Source: a virus. Taken from it: a stretch of 30,249 nucleotides of DNA. The translations under genes and the position numbers were made by a program. The stretch is taken from positions 1-30,249 of IMG/VR virus record IMGVR_UViG_3300044647_001295; one strand, 5' to 3'. Shown here one piece after another: positions 19,191 to 28,989 of this stretch (the first letter of the stretch is position 1; each line of letters begins with the position of its first letter). Below the pieces are notes generated by a model that saw only the letters and a list, made by a program, of their open reading frames with translations, ran no database searches and was not told where the DNA came from.

Positions 19191-19762
19191 TTGCTTACCT
19201 CATCCACGCAGTAGTACTTACACCGATGTGAAGTATACGCCTCTTTTGGGAATCCCTTGTGGAATGTCCAATTTGAGATGTGTTGATATGGCACGCCAAA
19301 CGCTTCCATCAGTTCTAGTCTGGTAACAAAGTTACTCTCTGGTCGCTTTGCGTGCCACATTTCTTTTGCATCCGCAATCATCTTGCGCATCCGGTCAGTG
19401 GTGGGCTTCATTTTACGTTGCCAATTCCCCTCCGCCAACCACTCAAGTAGATGCGTAGACGTTACCCAATAGGCATTGCCACGCTCGTAGCTCTTTAACC
19501 CACTCCGGATATACAGGTGTGTGGTAGAGAGAGGGACACCCATCTCTCGTGACAACTCTCGTACCGAGAAGTGCGTGTCTAGTATCTTTTCCTGCCTACG
19601 GCCAAGCAGGCGATTCATTCGCACGGTTACCGACCACACCGTGCGATTCAGCTGCTTGGCAACCACTCCGGGGCGCACCCCATTCTGGAACGCTTCCTGC
19701 AAGATCACATCCTCGTGCGCTTCCCACATACGATGGGTACGTTGCTTATATCGTACTGTCAT
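19091..19762 (-). CDS. Multi-HTH DNA-binding protein
   Basis: A 223-residue basic protein, ATG after AGAGGTGCATA. Residues 10-55 look SANT/Myb or HTH-like (EDVILQEAFQNGVRPGVVAKQLNRTVWSV, split by its own helices), then a second winged-helix-like segment (VRELSREMGVPLSTTHLYIRSGL, about 67-90) and a third (RLELMEAFGVPYQHISNWTFHKG, about 148-170). Three such motifs suggest a regulator or homing-like DNA-binding protein. The stop lies 100 nt inside the RusA-like gene. The target is unknown. Confidence 0.55.
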   Translation of the reverse strand: MTVRYKQRTHRMWEAHEDVILQEAFQNGVRPGVVAKQLNRTVWSVTVRMNRLLGRRQEKILDTHFSVRELSREMGVPLSTTHLYIRSGLKSYERGNAYWVTSTHLLEWLAEGNWQRKMKPTTDRMRKMIADAKEMWHAKRPESNFVTRLELMEAFGVPYQHISNWTFHKGFPKEAYTSHRCKYYCVDEVSKWANEHHRPQFQEWLSRRGELNSPTLQASITRT

Positions 19763-20036
19763 TATGCACCTCTTTCATACGCTTGCCAATCCACTCCGCC
19801 ACCGGCACAGCCACGGAGATGTCTTGACAAGGGAATCCTCCGCAAACAACGTCGATTGTTCCTCGCTCATACGAAACCTTTCTCACATCTGTGTGCAACG
19901 TGGCAGCAGGGAAGTGCCGTTGCAAAATCTTCTGGGCGTGTTTATCAATCTCGCACACGCCCACCACAGTCATCCCAGCACGCTCAAAGCCCAAATCAAA
20001 GCCACCGATACCACTGAATAGGGAAAGCACGTTCAT
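19746..20036 (-). CDS. Internally deleted C5-cytosine methyltransferase remnant
   Basis: A 96-residue protein. Residues 6-20 are SAM-binding motif I (LFSGIGGFDLGFERA) and 66-73 are motif IV with the catalytic cysteine C70 (GGFPCQDI). Directly after this, residues 75-86 read VAVPVAEWIGKR, which matches motif X, normally some 200 residues later at the protein end. Motifs VI, VIII, IX and the target recognition domain are absent. The frame is intact, and start (ATGA) and stop overlaps are neat. It may be a relic or a retained binding protein; methylation activity is unlikely. Confidence 0.7.
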   Translation of the reverse strand: MNVLSLFSGIGGFDLGFERAGMTVVGVCEIDKHAQKILQRHFPAATLHTDVRKVSYERGTIDVVCGGFPCQDISVAVPVAEWIGKRMKEVHNDSTI

Positions 20037-20440: not shown

Positions 20441-20646
20441 TGCAATTCCCTTTCGTACTCACCGAAGCGTGCATCCGCCTCGCTCCTACTTACTCCCCAC
20501 CACCAAAGGACAGCAACCCCCAGATTGTTTGCACCACGTTCCTGACAGTAGATGCGATACCGACCACTGCGTCGATCCTGATACATCGTGAGTAAACCGC
20601 CGGGTGAGTTTGACACCTTCACAACCGTGTTGTAATTGTTTTGCAC
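20437..20646 (-). CDS. Unknown small operon protein
   Basis: About 69 residues starting at GTG 20646 (VQNNYNTVVKV), which has AGGGGGAAG just upstream and overlaps the previous stop by one base (TAGTG). It contains a RYRIYCQERGANNLGVA strand-rich stretch and a tryptophan triplet. No family recognised; coupling to neighbours supports it as real. Confidence 0.55.
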   Translation of the reverse strand: MQNNYNTVVKVSNSPGGLLTMYQDRRSGRYRIYCQERGANNLGVAVLWWWGVSRSEADARFGEYERELQ

Positions 20647-21590
20647 TACTTCCCCCTTTCTCGAATTACTTGGCGATACGATTGCAGTGGCAACCACAGC
20701 CTCTGCGCCTGATTGATGCGGTCGGCAAGTCGCTCATCCAGCCGATTGTAGAGTTCCTGTGGGTCAAGGTTGCTGGTGTAGACCGTCTTTTTGTTTGTAC
20801 GACTATCAACAATCCGAAGCAACCGCCCTCGTACCCAATCGCTCTGGTCTTCCTCTGCACCGATGTCATCAAGTACTAGCATATCACAATACGATAGTTT
20901 GTCAATTAGCGCATCCACGGTGTTAGTCTTCACGCTTGACCGTAGCTCATCCACCAAGTTTGGCAGGATACGATACATCACGTTGTATCCCATCTCGGCG
21001 TACCGCAGTGCCCACGCACGAGCAAGATGGCTCTTCCCAGACCCTACGTTGCCCCAAACGTAGAAAGACATACCATTCGTCGGGTCATCCTCTTTCAGCG
21101 TCGCATACGCCCGCTGGAGGGCACTACGCTGGAATCTAACGGGAATGGTTTCGTTCCCACTTCGATAGTCCGACATCGGACGGTCAAGATCAAACGCATC
21201 AAACGTGTCATCGGCAAATGCCTTCAGTGATTCTCTTAAGACGCTCCCTGCTGGATTGCATGAATCACACCGTTGCAATACTCGATACCGGTAGTCCGCA
21301 GGGTCAACGTCAAGGTAGTACCATCCAGCCCCGTCGCAGTTGCACCCAGCCACAAGCGGTCTAGAATGGTAGGTCGTAATCCGGTTGACCTTGCCCTTCG
21401 TGCGGTAGTACTCGGCCCAATACGTCTTGCTCGCCTCGTACACTTCCTTCCCCGTCATCCCTGGTCGCACTATCCCCAATTCCTGAAGCGGAGATTTCTC
21501 TGGCATACTCGGCAAGGTACGCTGCCATCCGCTCTTCACGCTGTTGCCGCTGAATGTCCCCTCGTTGCGCTTGTCGTTGTCGCTTGTCAT
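20646..21590 (-). CDS. DnaC-like helicase loader (AAA+ ATPase)
   Basis: About 314 residues from ATG 21590 (GGAAACAG upstream). N-terminal cysteines (C-x-C at 83/85 and C-x-x-C at 108/111) look like a zinc-binding site. Walker A is GNVGSGKS at about 180-187; Walker B is LVLDDIGAE around 239-246. The arginine-rich C terminus (RLLRIVDSR, DERLADRIN) completes a DnaC/IstB-type AAA+ domain. It would load the replicative helicase at the origin inside the next gene. It overlaps the initiator gene by about 230 nt, so the true start could be further in. Confidence 0.78.
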   Translation of the reverse strand: MTSDNDKRNEGTFSGNSVKSGWQRTLPSMPEKSPLQELGIVRPGMTGKEVYEASKTYWAEYYRTKGKVNRITTYHSRPLVAGCNCDGAGWYYLDVDPADYRYRVLQRCDSCNPAGSVLRESLKAFADDTFDAFDLDRPMSDYRSGNETIPVRFQRSALQRAYATLKEDDPTNGMSFYVWGNVGSGKSHLARAWALRYAEMGYNVMYRILPNLVDELRSSVKTNTVDALIDKLSYCDMLVLDDIGAEEDQSDWVRGRLLRIVDSRTNKKTVYTSNLDPQELYNRLDERLADRINQAQRLWLPLQSYRQVIRERGK

Positions 21591-22245
21591 TCTGTTTCCA
21601 GCCTTCCTTGTACACTTGCAGGCATCCTGCAACGTTTCCCTTTCGGTATCCCCTACTCACCCACTCTTTGCAGATACTCTCCCATCGTGCAAGATCACCC
21701 ACCTCGCGCATCACCTCATCCCTCACAGCGATTGGTACTGATAGTCGGTGATAATCCCGAAAGATGGTCAACGGTGTTGGCTCAACTGTCGGAGTTTCTT
21801 TTGGCGCACGTTGACGCTTCGGCTTGGCAGGTTTCTCGCTCTGTACAATATCGCTAGATATTGTATTTCTTTTCTTTTCTTTATATGTTGGCAATTTTTG
21901 CAATACCTCTGTAGCAGTTTTTGCTATAGCATTTTTTTCTATAGCAATTTCTTCTATAGGTGCATCATTGCAACACCCCTCTGGAACGTCGTGAATGGTA
22001 TACACTGTGCCACTTGCCGTCTTCACACTTTGCGTCAAAAACCCAAGTGCTTGCAGGCGCGCGGTGGCCGTGCTGATTTGTCGGATTGAGCATCCGGTCA
22101 GCTTGGCAAGTGCGGAGAGCGACAGGGTGGTGGTCTGCTGATGATACCCGATGGTGTGTCGGTATATCACCAGCATGATCTTGACCTCTGTCCCAGACAA
22201 GTCTGGCATTCGCTCAATGAACTTGTTCGGGAGCTTCGTGAACAT
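21361..22245 (-). CDS. Replication initiator (lambda O / DnaD-like wHTH protein)
   Basis: A 294-residue protein, ATG after AGGATTC. The N terminus (FTKLPNKFIERMPDLSG, VKIMLVIYRHTIGYHQ, then ALAKLTGCSIRQIS, about 45-58) is a winged helix typical of phage O-type initiators that bind the origin. A low-complexity middle (about 100-130) contains the iterons described separately. The C terminus (about 155-225) is a DnaD-like helical part, and the protein ends DYDLPF, common in loaders of this kind. With the DnaC-like gene next to it, it forms the replication pair. Confidence 0.75.
   Translation of the reverse strand: MFTKLPNKFIERMPDLSGTEVKIMLVIYRHTIGYHQQTTTLSLSALAKLTGCSIRQISTATARLQALGFLTQSVKTASGTVYTIHDVPEGCCNDAPIEEIAIEKNAIAKTATEVLQKLPTYKEKKRNTISSDIVQSEKPAKPKRQRAPKETPTVEPTPLTIFRDYHRLSVPIAVRDEVMREVGDLARWESICKEWVSRGYRKGNVAGCLQVYKEGWKQNDKRQRQAQRGDIQRQQREERMAAYLAEYAREISASGIGDSATRDDGEGSVRGEQDVLGRVLPHEGQGQPDYDLPF
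21845..21899. other. AT-rich candidate unwinding element
   Basis: A stretch dominated by T and A (long TTTCTTTTCTTT-like runs and TATATG) immediately beside the iterons, inside the initiator gene. In lambda the order within the O gene is iterons then AT-rich region; the same order occurs here in the gene's sense direction. Function is inferred. Confidence 0.45.
21900..21959 (-). repeat. Four tandem 15-bp iteron-like repeats (candidate origin)
   Basis: On the - strand four 15-mers follow each other: CTATAGAAGAAATTG, CTATAGAAAAAAATG, CTATAGCAAAAACTG and a degenerate CTACAGAGGTATTGC. They lie in the initiator gene and encode a repeated five-residue pattern around IAIEKNAIAKTATE. Tandem initiator-binding sites inside the initiator gene are the arrangement of the lambda origin. 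Confidence 0.55.
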
Positions 22246-22253
22246 GGTGAATC

Positions 22254-23045
22254 CTACGTCATGCAGTAACCGCTCTCGCAGTTATCGAGTTCCTCGGTAC
22301 TAAACATATTGTCGCTTGGAGCGTCTACAGCGTGTTCTAATGGAATCAACCACGGCGACAGATACACCTCATCTCGACCAGCGTTGGCTCGCTTCACATT
22401 CAGATGCTTTTCAAGATCAACGGCTTTGGCAAAGAGTTCGGGTTGATGTTGCCGAAGCTCAATCCAATCTCGCTTTCGGAAGTACGGACAAAACCAGCAC
22501 GATGACTTGGGGGCAGCAGGAAGTCCTGCTTCTCGAATCACGTCCTGACACATACGCCGAGTCATCAGCATATCAATGAGAGGATACTCCTTGAACACAA
22601 ACGGCTCACGTTCCGGGTCGTCAGTGCGCATCCGATACGACTCATCTGCACTGATGCCAACCCCAAGTGGCTGTCGATTCTGCTTGGTAGCACCAGCATG
22701 TTGTTTCATCCACCGCTCAATGACCTTGACCTTCCACTTGGTCGTGCAGTTGCGCTGTGCTGGTTGCCCAATCTTTCCCATCTTGGCAGGAATAGACACG
22801 TTGGTATTCTCACTCATAATGTCCTGATACAACGTGATCCCGTTCTTTTGCACTTGGTGGATTTTCAACCCGTTGCGCTCGGCGTATGGGATGGCCACGT
22901 CACGCAAGTATGCAATGGTCTGTGGATTCTCGGTATCATCTCCGACATTCGCAAATACAAAGTCGGTGTACGGCATCTTCCCCTGCGCTGACAGCACTAG
23001 CACCGCAGTGGATTGCACCCCACCTCCAAAGCTAAACACTCGCAT
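22254..23045 (-). CDS. PAPS-reductase-like ATP pyrophosphatase
   Basis: About 263 residues from ATG 23045, preceded by GGAGAGAGG. Residues 5-13 (SFGGGVQST) are the PP-loop that binds ATP in this superfamily. Downstream are RNCTTKWKVKVI and SSCWFCPYFRKRDW, cysteine motifs seen in phage PAPS-reductase-like and DndC-like proteins. Most phage members have no known substrate; sulfur transfer, nucleic-acid modification or precursor metabolism are options. It lies near a cytosine methyltransferase remnant. The role here is inferred from family only. Confidence 0.72.
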   Translation of the reverse strand: MRVFSFGGGVQSTAVLVLSAQGKMPYTDFVFANVGDDTENPQTIAYLRDVAIPYAERNGLKIHQVQKNGITLYQDIMSENTNVSIPAKMGKIGQPAQRNCTTKWKVKVIERWMKQHAGATKQNRQPLGVGISADESYRMRTDDPEREPFVFKEYPLIDMLMTRRMCQDVIREAGLPAAPKSSCWFCPYFRKRDWIELRQHQPELFAKAVDLEKHLNVKRANAGRDEVYLSPWLIPLEHAVDAPSDNMFSTEELDNCESGYCMT

Positions 23046-23073
23046 ATGCCTCTCTCCGTTTGATACAATAAAG

Positions 23074-23127
23074 ATGCAGTTCCTCTGCTGCATTCGTGAC
23101 GGGCAACGTTCCCCCTTGCCCGTCACG
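23074..23127. other. Two hairpins in the intercistronic gap
   Basis: A 12-bp perfect stem (23095-23106 with 23116-23127, nine-base loop) and a 6-bp stem (23074-23079 with 23088-23093) fill the ~90-nt gap between the RHH gene and the PAPS-like gene. There is no U-run on the - strand, so a leftward terminator is unlikely; an attenuator or mRNA stability element is possible. A T-run after the first stem on the + strand gives terminator form in that direction. Confidence 0.55.
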
Positions 23128-23134
23128 ATTTTTG

Positions 23135-23443
23135 CTACTTGTGATACCACGCCATTGCGATCCGAATCGCATGGGCCAACGACAACCGCCGACGCAGACT
23201 CACGTCCTTAAGGCGATTATAATCCACCTGTGTGAAGTACGCCCCTAGATGCACTCGAAACCGCTCCATTGGCACTTCCAGCACGGGTGAGCCAGCCTCA
23301 ATCCACTTGCTCACTACCATCCGAATGTGGTCGCTCATGGTGTTCATTTCGGCTTTGGCGCGCTGATTGACCTTTGCGCCCAGCTCCGGTGGAACGCTCG
23401 TGGCGACCATCGTGAATGTCTTCATAGAGTCGTTCGATGGCAT
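23135..23443 (-). CDS. Ribbon-helix-helix-like protein (second of two)
   Basis: A 102-residue basic protein; ATG 23443 has GGGGAAG upstream. The segment FTMVATSVPPELGAKVNQRA and EMNTMSDHIRMVVSKWIEAG (about 10-50) fits a ribbon-helix-helix DNA-binding domain: one strand then two helices. Its first 146 bases overlap the preceding RHH gene in another frame. Such small RHH proteins regulate phage early or copy-control promoters. Confidence 0.55.
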   Translation of the reverse strand: MPSNDSMKTFTMVATSVPPELGAKVNQRAKAEMNTMSDHIRMVVSKWIEAGSPVLEVPMERFRVHLGAYFTQVDYNRLKDVSLRRRLSLAHAIRIAMAWYHK

Positions 23444-26432: not shown

Positions 26433-26863
26433 GGGGAATCTTGCACCAATTTCGTGATGCCACGAAAAAGCTCTGCTTGCTCGCAGGCGTACGCGCGGAA
26501 CCGGAACCCGAGTAGTAGACCAGCAAGCAGGCGAAATCGCATCGCCGAGTAGTAGGAACGAACGAGCCACCTCTTTCCCCGTCGCTCGCAGGCGCGCGGA
26601 ACCGAAGCCCGAGTAGTGGGGGGTGAGTACGCGCGGAACCGAAGCCCGAGTAGTAACCCCCCCCAGCTCGCAGGCGCGCGCCCGACCGCCCCGACGCGCC
26701 CCGCTCCGGCCCCGGCGGTGATCCCGTCAAATGTCGATTTTCTCATCTTTCACCCGGCTCCGGTGGTGCTGGCTCCGCGGTGATTTTGGCAGCTCCGGGG
26801 TGGTGGTTGGGGTGATCTTTTGGGGGTGATGTGTGCATATATAGAATTGGTGGCAATTCATGT
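26433..26863. repeat. Non-coding GC-rich repeat region between divergent promoters
   Basis: This ~430-nt stretch holds no convincing gene. It contains three copies of CTCGCAGGCG (26480-26489, 26585-26594, 26667-26676), three near-identical copies of a ~25-bp unit starting CGCGCGGAACCG and ending GAGTAGT (26492-26517, 26593-26617, 26630-26655), and a fourth GAGTAGT at 26547. GAGTAGT start points are at 26510, 26547, 26611 and 26648, so pairs sit 37 bp apart. The ORFs across it are Arg/Gly/Ser-rich shadows. Long C-runs precede the duplicated promoter cassette. Confidence 0.6.
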
Positions 26864-26892
26864 TTGACAAACATACATACATCATGTATATT
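26864..26892 (+). promoter_or_regulatory. Rightward promoter PR1
   Basis: TTGACA (26864-26869), 17 bases, TATATT (26887-26892): a sigma70 promoter for the clamp-like gene. The surrounding sequence is duplicated at 28903-28989. Confidence 0.8.
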
Positions 26893-26897
26893 GTAGA

Positions 26898-26927
26898 CAA
26901 CCCGGCAACGATGAACGCCGGTACACA
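26898..26927 (+). repeat. Shared 5' leader, copy 1
   Basis: A 30-base sequence identical to 28960-28989, starting at the expected transcript start. It contains a CCGGC (26902-26906) / GCCGG (26917-26921) stem with a ten-base loop holding ATGAAC. It may be a translational operator or mRNA-stabilising 5' hairpin. Confidence 0.7.
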
Positions 26928-28886: not shown

Positions 28887-28925
28887 TGGTTGCAACGTAT
28901 ATATGGGAGTGGTTGTAATTCATAC

Positions 28926-28954
28926 TTGACAAATACTTTTACATCGTATATATT
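28926..28954 (+). promoter_or_regulatory. Rightward promoter PR2
   Basis: TTGACA (28926-28931), 17 bases, TATATT (28949-28954). It matches the 26864 promoter in spacing and surroundings, and drives the zinc-finger repeat protein gene. Confidence 0.8.
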
Positions 28955-28959
28955 TGTGG

Positions 28960-28989
28960 CAACCCGGCAACGATGAACGCCGGTACACA
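28960..28989 (+). repeat. Shared 5' leader, copy 2
   Basis: Identical over 30 bases to 26898-26927, with the same CCGGC/GCCGG hairpin at the transcript start. Confidence 0.7.

Follow-up and report, generated by a model that had tools for sequence, protein, structure and literature searches.

A putative lambda-type replication origin with a strand-polar hairpin inside the O-like initiator gene of an IMG/VR virus

The window analysed here, which is the whole stretch of 30,249 bases from a single IMG/VR virus record, contains tandem 15-bp repeats within a gene for an O-like replication initiator. This raises the question of whether the repeats and the DNA next to them form a replication origin, or whether they serve the encoded protein, a transcript or another DNA-binding function. 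Judged from sequence comparisons, the locus is very probably a lambda-type theta origin located in the gene of its own initiator, with iterons and an A+T-rich tract that is flanked by a strand-polar hairpin.

Genes and layout of the locus

The following features were identified:
20646..21590, minus strand, DnaC-like helicase loader gene (phrog_50; relatives)
21361..22245, minus strand, O-like replication initiator gene, 294 aa (Pfam/PHROG matches, AlphaFold model)
21844..21865, plus (template) strand, perfect hairpin TACAATATC-GCTA-GATATTGTA (strongest hairpin of the window; covariation)
21866..21889, minus strand, A+T-rich, purine-rich tract AACATATAAAGAAAAGAAAAGAAA (coding strand), presumed unwinding element
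21890..21906, minus strand, invariant 17-bp box GTATTGCAAAAATTGCC between the iterons and the A+T-rich tract
21902..21961, minus strand, four tandem 15-bp iterons (Tandem Repeats Finder, chance tests, conservation)

The gene containing the repeats had been called O-like in an earlier note, and this was supported by profile matches. The initiator was found to match HTH_36 in Pfam above the cut-off (1.1e-6) and Phage_rep_O just under it (3.4e-6; 27.9 bits, 0.8 bit short of the curated cut-off of 28.7), and its best PHROG was phrog_678, 'replication initiation O-like' (2e-15). A winged helix was predicted at about residues 1-84 and a helical C-terminal domain at 158-253. The linker (residues 90-143), in which the origin block is encoded, showed pLDDT below 50 in the AlphaFold model and was predicted to be disordered. 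A Foldseek search with the initiator model returned generic winged-helix proteins only (none at E <= 0.001), and neither a PDB profile search nor a comparison of the initiator protein with INPHARED gave a match.

The loader gene, previously described as an adjacent DnaC-like gene, was confirmed as such by its match to phrog_50 (8.4e-40), and it was shown to share about 230 bp (21361-21590) with the end of the initiator gene in a different reading frame, an overlap that is retained in relatives. Its reading frame is open from 21632, and the start at 21590 is suggested by alignment with relatives. A search of bacterial genomes with the loader alignment gave no matches. Directly upstream of the initiator gene is a PAPS-reductase-like gene (22254-23150), and a similar gene was found at the same place in one related lineage, L008.

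In the direction of the gene, the iterons (21961-21902) are followed by the box (21906-21890), the A+T-rich tract (21889-21866) and the palindrome (21865-21844). The iteron units read in this direction are ACCTATAGAAGAAAT (21947-21961), TGCTATAGAAAAAAA (21932-21946), TGCTATAGCAAAAAC (21917-21931) and TGCTACAGAGGTATT (21902-21916). Tandem Repeats Finder reported 21908-21959 with a period of 15, 3.5 copies and 83% matches. The best period-15 self-match was 34 out of 45 positions, whereas 100 dinucleotide shuffles of the full window never exceeded 28 and 500 shuffles of the surrounding 400 bp never exceeded 26 at any period from 9 to 30. Thus, the four tandem repeats reported earlier are real and beyond chance, except that only three of them are good copies and the fourth (21902-21916) is degenerate. 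Three iterons are centred on CTATAG, with a dyad core resembling TTGCTATAGCAA, and the array of putative initiator-binding sites is conserved as DNA.

The box overlaps the last iteron by a few bases and contains a GCAA-AAA-TTGC dyad. The A+T-rich tract that had been noted after the repeats, in the same order as in lambda, was also confirmed, and the annotated lambda O gene agrees with this order. The 36-mer starting at 21864 has an A+T fraction of 0.81, the joint highest in the window (window mean 0.496). Positions 21866-21890 are 80% A+T and 84% purine, and 21866-21882 form a 17-base pure pyrimidine/purine run that has no counterpart elsewhere in the window.

The layout agrees with that of annotated lambda and P22. 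As in lambda (ori lambda in gene O; NC_001416), the origin block lies inside the initiator gene between the winged helix and the C-terminal domain, with four dyad iterons followed by a purine-rich A+T-rich tract and the helicase-loader gene next to it (PMC4488673, PMC3349717). The label 'lambda-style' therefore applies to the layout but not to the dimensions of the iterons, which in lambda are 18 bp long with a spacing of 20-24 bp and in the window are 15 bp long with a spacing of 15 bp. With this spacing, the face of the helix changes from one site to the next, which differs from lambda. The lambda loader is P and not a DnaC-like protein, and the palindrome beyond the A+T-rich tract of lambda is imperfect (ATTCGTCAGA-GAAT-TCTGGCGAAT) and lacks the C-T..C-G loop. 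GC skew, which had been suggested as a check, gave the origin no support, as the sign change falls at about 15.5-16.5 kb and not at 21.9 kb, a measure that is confounded here by gene orientation.

A covarying hairpin with a strand-polar loop

The interval given in the earlier note (21845-21959) spans all but one base of the palindrome next to the A+T-rich tract, which was not mentioned there. The palindrome has a 9-bp stem and a 4-base loop and reads TACAATATC-TAGC-GATATTGTA on the coding strand with the loop closed by C-G. No other hairpin in the window is as strong, and none shares its loop class. In the gene of the window, the loop T and C are third codon positions.

When viral contigs were searched at the protein and DNA level, the gene pair was recovered in six further IMG/VR lineages (L002/L003, with an initiator 78% identical to that of the window, L007, L008, L030, L031, and L032). 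Like the window, they contain an O-like and DnaC-like pair, iterons, an A+T-rich tract and a hairpin, and the block was found at the same place in all seven lineages, window included. They differ from the window in the iteron core, which is TTGCTATAG or TTCTATAG, and in the letters of the stem and loop, which vary within a rule. The stem arms of the seven lineages vary as complementary sets (TACAATATC, TACTGTATC, TACAACATC, TACTACATC, and a shorter CAACATC in L032), and the loops are TAGC, TAAC, TGAC, TCAC, and TGTC, all of them T..C and closed by C-G. The rule is C-TNNC-G on the coding strand, which corresponds to C-GNNA-G on the template strand. Two further contigs obtained by a palindrome-pattern search (L034 and L036) were chance matches and were discarded. 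Scanning viral contigs with a 17-mer yielded 16 stretches: four belonged to lineages already recovered by the protein searches, and the other 12 lay in unrelated genes and were discarded.

A comparison of 14 centre-aligned hairpins showed that 96.4% of the cells pair (58.8% when shuffled) and that both sides had changed in 39 cells (11.3 when shuffled). The covariation score was 0.955 compared to 0.216 for shuffled sets, and it was reached by none of 500 shuffles. No position in this set is invariant except the closing C-G and the T and C of the loop; for the loop this is by construction, because the hairpins were chosen for having it. The pairing is the informative part within the set, and the loop is tested by counts across clusters.

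These counts were obtained from phage records, bacterial genomes and viral-contig loci, which together gave 126 O-like genes in 90 clusters. From the A+T-rich tract onward, C-T(N)NC-G with a stem of at least 6 bp was found in 21 of 89 clusters (0.03 expected from shuffles), and the mirror form, C-G(N)NA-G on the coding strand, in none of the 89. A later sample of 23 unseen clusters, all from the PAJU2/PMG1-like clade, gave 18 with T..C and none with G..A, and no hairpin of either class was found in the rest of the genes of these clusters (11.8 kb). When whole genes were scanned with no reference to the A+T-rich tract, 42 of 113 clusters contained C-T(N)NC-G with a stem of at least 6 bp; all of these were located in the middle of the gene (positions 350-575). 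They comprise 23 different stems, and reverse polarity was seen in none. With a stem of 5 bp, the same scan gave 45 T..C and two of reverse polarity. None of these counts represents a number of independent events, because the clusters share ancestry.

The cultured phages or prophages PAJU2, HK97, and PMG1 were found to obey the loop rule despite little or no protein similarity. The Pseudomonas phages PAJU2 (NC_011373) and PMG1 (D3-like, HQ711985) resemble the window in having an O gene, iterons or repeats, an A+T-rich tract and a hairpin, and their hairpins, ACAACTCC-TAAC-GGAGTTGT in PAJU2 and CTGTTCC-TTC-GGAACAG in PMG1, show the same loop rule and strand polarity. On the template strand, a TTC loop such as that of PMG1 reads C-GAA-G. 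They differ from the window in the iteron sequence and in the loader or DnaB partner, and their initiators show no whole-protein similarity to that of the window; PAJU2 was reached only from L008, at 29%. The hairpin of HK97 is CCCCC-TAAC-GGGGG, and prophage loci of P. sagittaria and Azotobacter (L051, L050) also contain the motif. Lambda, phi80 and many enterobacterial O genes break the T..C rule, several of them having C-run/G-run hairpins with other loops, and the deepest relatives (L045 and L046) have palindromes with no T..C loop. Since lambda, phi80 and many enterobacterial O genes fall outside the rule, the T..C hairpin is a widespread variant and not a defining feature of lambda-type origins.

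Two further observations were made on these sequences. In P22-like enterobacterial O genes (L052 P22, L054 HK97, L119, L123, and others), a C-run motif, CCCCCTTACCCCC, follows the A+T-rich tract and often forms part of a complete CCCCC/GGGGG hairpin, the loop of which varies. Besides, 15-bp dyad iterons (GTTAAAGAATTTAAC, GTAAAGAATCTTTAC, and GGTCAAAATTTGACC), a purine tract and a palindrome were found in the remote relatives L045 (1723-1743), L046 (3722-3739) and L004 (near 3530), of which only L004 has a T..C loop (CGCGC-TGAC-GCGCG, 5 bp).

A perfect dyad that adjoins the A+T-rich tract, next to iterons that are themselves dyads, could also be a duplex site for a dimeric protein such as the loader, a repressor or a host factor. 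We consider this unlikely, as the arms diverge almost freely while complementarity is kept, which would not be expected of a fixed protein site, whose arms should be conserved, and a symmetric site gives no reason for the 42:0 polarity of the loop. An RNA structure, whether formed by the initiator-loader operon mRNA or, as a terminator or processing site, by an antisense transcript, is improbable to about the same degree. The palindrome does lie inside a gene, and the plus-strand hairpin is followed by TTTCTTTTCTTT, which gives it the rough look of a terminator. The loops in the mRNA would, however, be UNNC or UUC, and in the antisense transcript the tetraloops are GNYA in 15 of 19 cases and not GNRA. 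To our knowledge, neither UNNC/UUC nor GNYA is a general class of stable RNA loop. It is the predominance of GNYA among the template-strand tetraloops that makes the RNA reading unlikely. An antisense intrinsic terminator was considered separately and rejected: the stem in the window is mostly A+T and the T run is broken by C every 3-4 bases, and PAJU2, PMG1, and HK97 have no U run after the hairpin.

Constraint on the block as DNA

Constraint on the DNA was measured as the use of the same codon where two lineages share an amino acid for which a synonymous choice is possible. Among the seven lineages, the same codon was used in 368 of 407 comparisons over codons 95-134 (0.904; 160 expected), compared to 340 of 882 (0.385) before the block (codons 1-94) and 258 of 650 (0.397) after it (codons 135-200; 42.9% in codons 201-218). 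The DNA of the origin block is thus constrained beyond what the peptide requires. In the overlap with the loader gene (codons ~211-255), the value was about 0.60-0.68, which is raised as expected of a stretch coding twice but is below that of the origin block. Judged by codon use, the origin block is therefore more constrained as DNA than a stretch that codes twice. Within the block and among related lineages, the same codon was used in 74 of 82 comparisons in the box (codons 113-119) and in 87 of 87 in the A+T-rich tract (codons 120-126). The box was identical in the window, L002, L003, L007, and L008.

It could also be that the O-like protein binds the repeats for autoregulation or partition and that replication starts elsewhere, given that intragenic arrays of binding sites can be regulatory and that GC skew is unhelpful for locating the origin. 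We regard this as very unlikely, since the A+T-rich tract and the position match mapped lambda-type origins and the whole block of iterons, A+T-rich tract and hairpin is constrained as one unit.

The iterons are in frame and encode the peptide repeat IEEIA/IEKNA/IAKTA. Synonymous-codon shuffles that kept the peptide were as repetitive in none of 2000 trials with the codon pool of the whole gene and in eight of 2000 with the local pool, and the repetition in the DNA is closer than the encoded peptide calls for. That the repeats merely encode a repetitive linker, as their frame and the predicted disorder of that linker might suggest, can practically be dismissed and is refuted as a sole explanation by the failure of the synonymous shuffles to reproduce the repeat, by the codon identity of 0.904 compared to about 0.39 on either side and by the complementary changes in the palindrome. 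The comparison of relatives that the earlier note had proposed thus shows that the DNA is conserved too, and not the peptide alone, which is the opposite of the outcome that the note had named as refuting its reading.

Proposed function of the hairpin and other observations

In the proposed lambda-type origin, the O-like protein, probably as a dimer and through its winged helix, would bind the 15-bp iterons. By analogy with lambda, bending and negative supercoiling would then open the adjacent purine-rich A+T-rich tract, and the DnaC-like product of the overlapping gene would bring a DnaB-type helicase, presumably that of the host, to the open DNA. As the tract opens, the template strand may fold into a mini-hairpin closed by G..A that resists SSB. 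This hairpin could delimit the bubble and make it harder for the bubble to close again, or it could give the machinery for loading or priming a structured strand to act on. The layout, the constraint on the DNA, the covariation and the strand polarity of the loop are shown by the sequences, whereas binding by the initiator, melting, and the extrusion and role of the hairpin are inferred.

GNA triloops are exceptionally stable in general, and the plus strand of the window shows the d(cGNNAg)/d(cGNAg) pattern, with a C-G closing pair, a G..A loop and a perfect stem. Energies computed with the DNA parameters of ViennaRNA were -5.8 (template) and -5.4 (coding) kcal/mol for the window hairpin, and the difference between the strands, 0.4 kcal/mol for tetraloops and none for TTC triloops, is not convincing. 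Folding of the template strand is proposed because d(cGNNAg) belongs to the stable DNA tetraloops found by selection (Nakano et al., 2002, as cited in the reference list of PMC5090098) and because there is a precedent in the G..A hairpins of phage N4. The promoters of the N4 virion RNA polymerase contain, like the window, a small hairpin in which a C:G pair closes a G..A loop on the template strand, the N4 loops having three bases; the closing pair and the loop G and A are needed for supercoil-driven extrusion, and the stability is explained by a sheared G:A pair (PMC4496689). At these promoters, SSB melts only the other strand and the template hairpin is left standing (PMC4496689). The N4 hairpins serve a phage RNA polymerase as promoters, whereas the hairpin of the window is located at a putative origin.

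Tentatively, and with slightly less than an even chance in our judgment, a large share of the lambda-type origins in phages and prophages may have as a third element a C-G-closed G(N)NA hairpin that folds exclusively or preferentially on the template strand, is extruded by supercoiling, resists SSB as in N4 promoters and determines both the boundary and the strand chosen when the helicase is loaded or the first primer is made. In the textbook model of the lambda origin, two parts are named, the iterons and the A+T-rich tract. Should compensatory mutation maintain a third part, a strand-specific hairpin, in many relatives, the upkeep of the open state and the strand choice of the helicase would become testable, with a precise rule to mutate. 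If true, the proposal would also mean that G..A mini-hairpins extruded by supercoiling occur at replication origins as well as at the N4 promoters from which they are known. The combination of dyad repeats, a purine-rich A+T-rich tract and a C-T(N)NC-G hairpin at gene positions of about 350-575 could serve as a signature for locating the origins of uncultured phages.

A partial literature search gave no description of a hairpin of this kind in lambda-type origins; the lambdoid-origin papers of 1979, which reportedly discuss palindromes, lie outside that search. The origin of the window would be a new member of the lambda type, and its covarying, strand-polar hairpin a variant that we did not find described and for which priority is not claimed.

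Some other features of the window were recorded. The match of a 96-aa ORF (19746-20036) to C-5 cytosine DNA methylase is confined to the first 77 of the 324 positions, and the ORF is, judged by this match, a truncated or frameshifted methyltransferase. A 91-bp direct repeat with 80% identity (26837-26927 and 28899-28989), with TTGACA and TATATT-like boxes, precedes two genes and is probably a duplicated promoter and leader. Three 36-bp copies ending in GCGCGGAACCGAAGCCCGAGTAGT or similar were found in a G+C-rich stretch (26481-26654; spacing 101 and 37). Finally, a long ORF that runs off the end of the contig (28954-30249) contains repeated CxxC zinc-ribbon-like units (CRGCG...WCEMCY).
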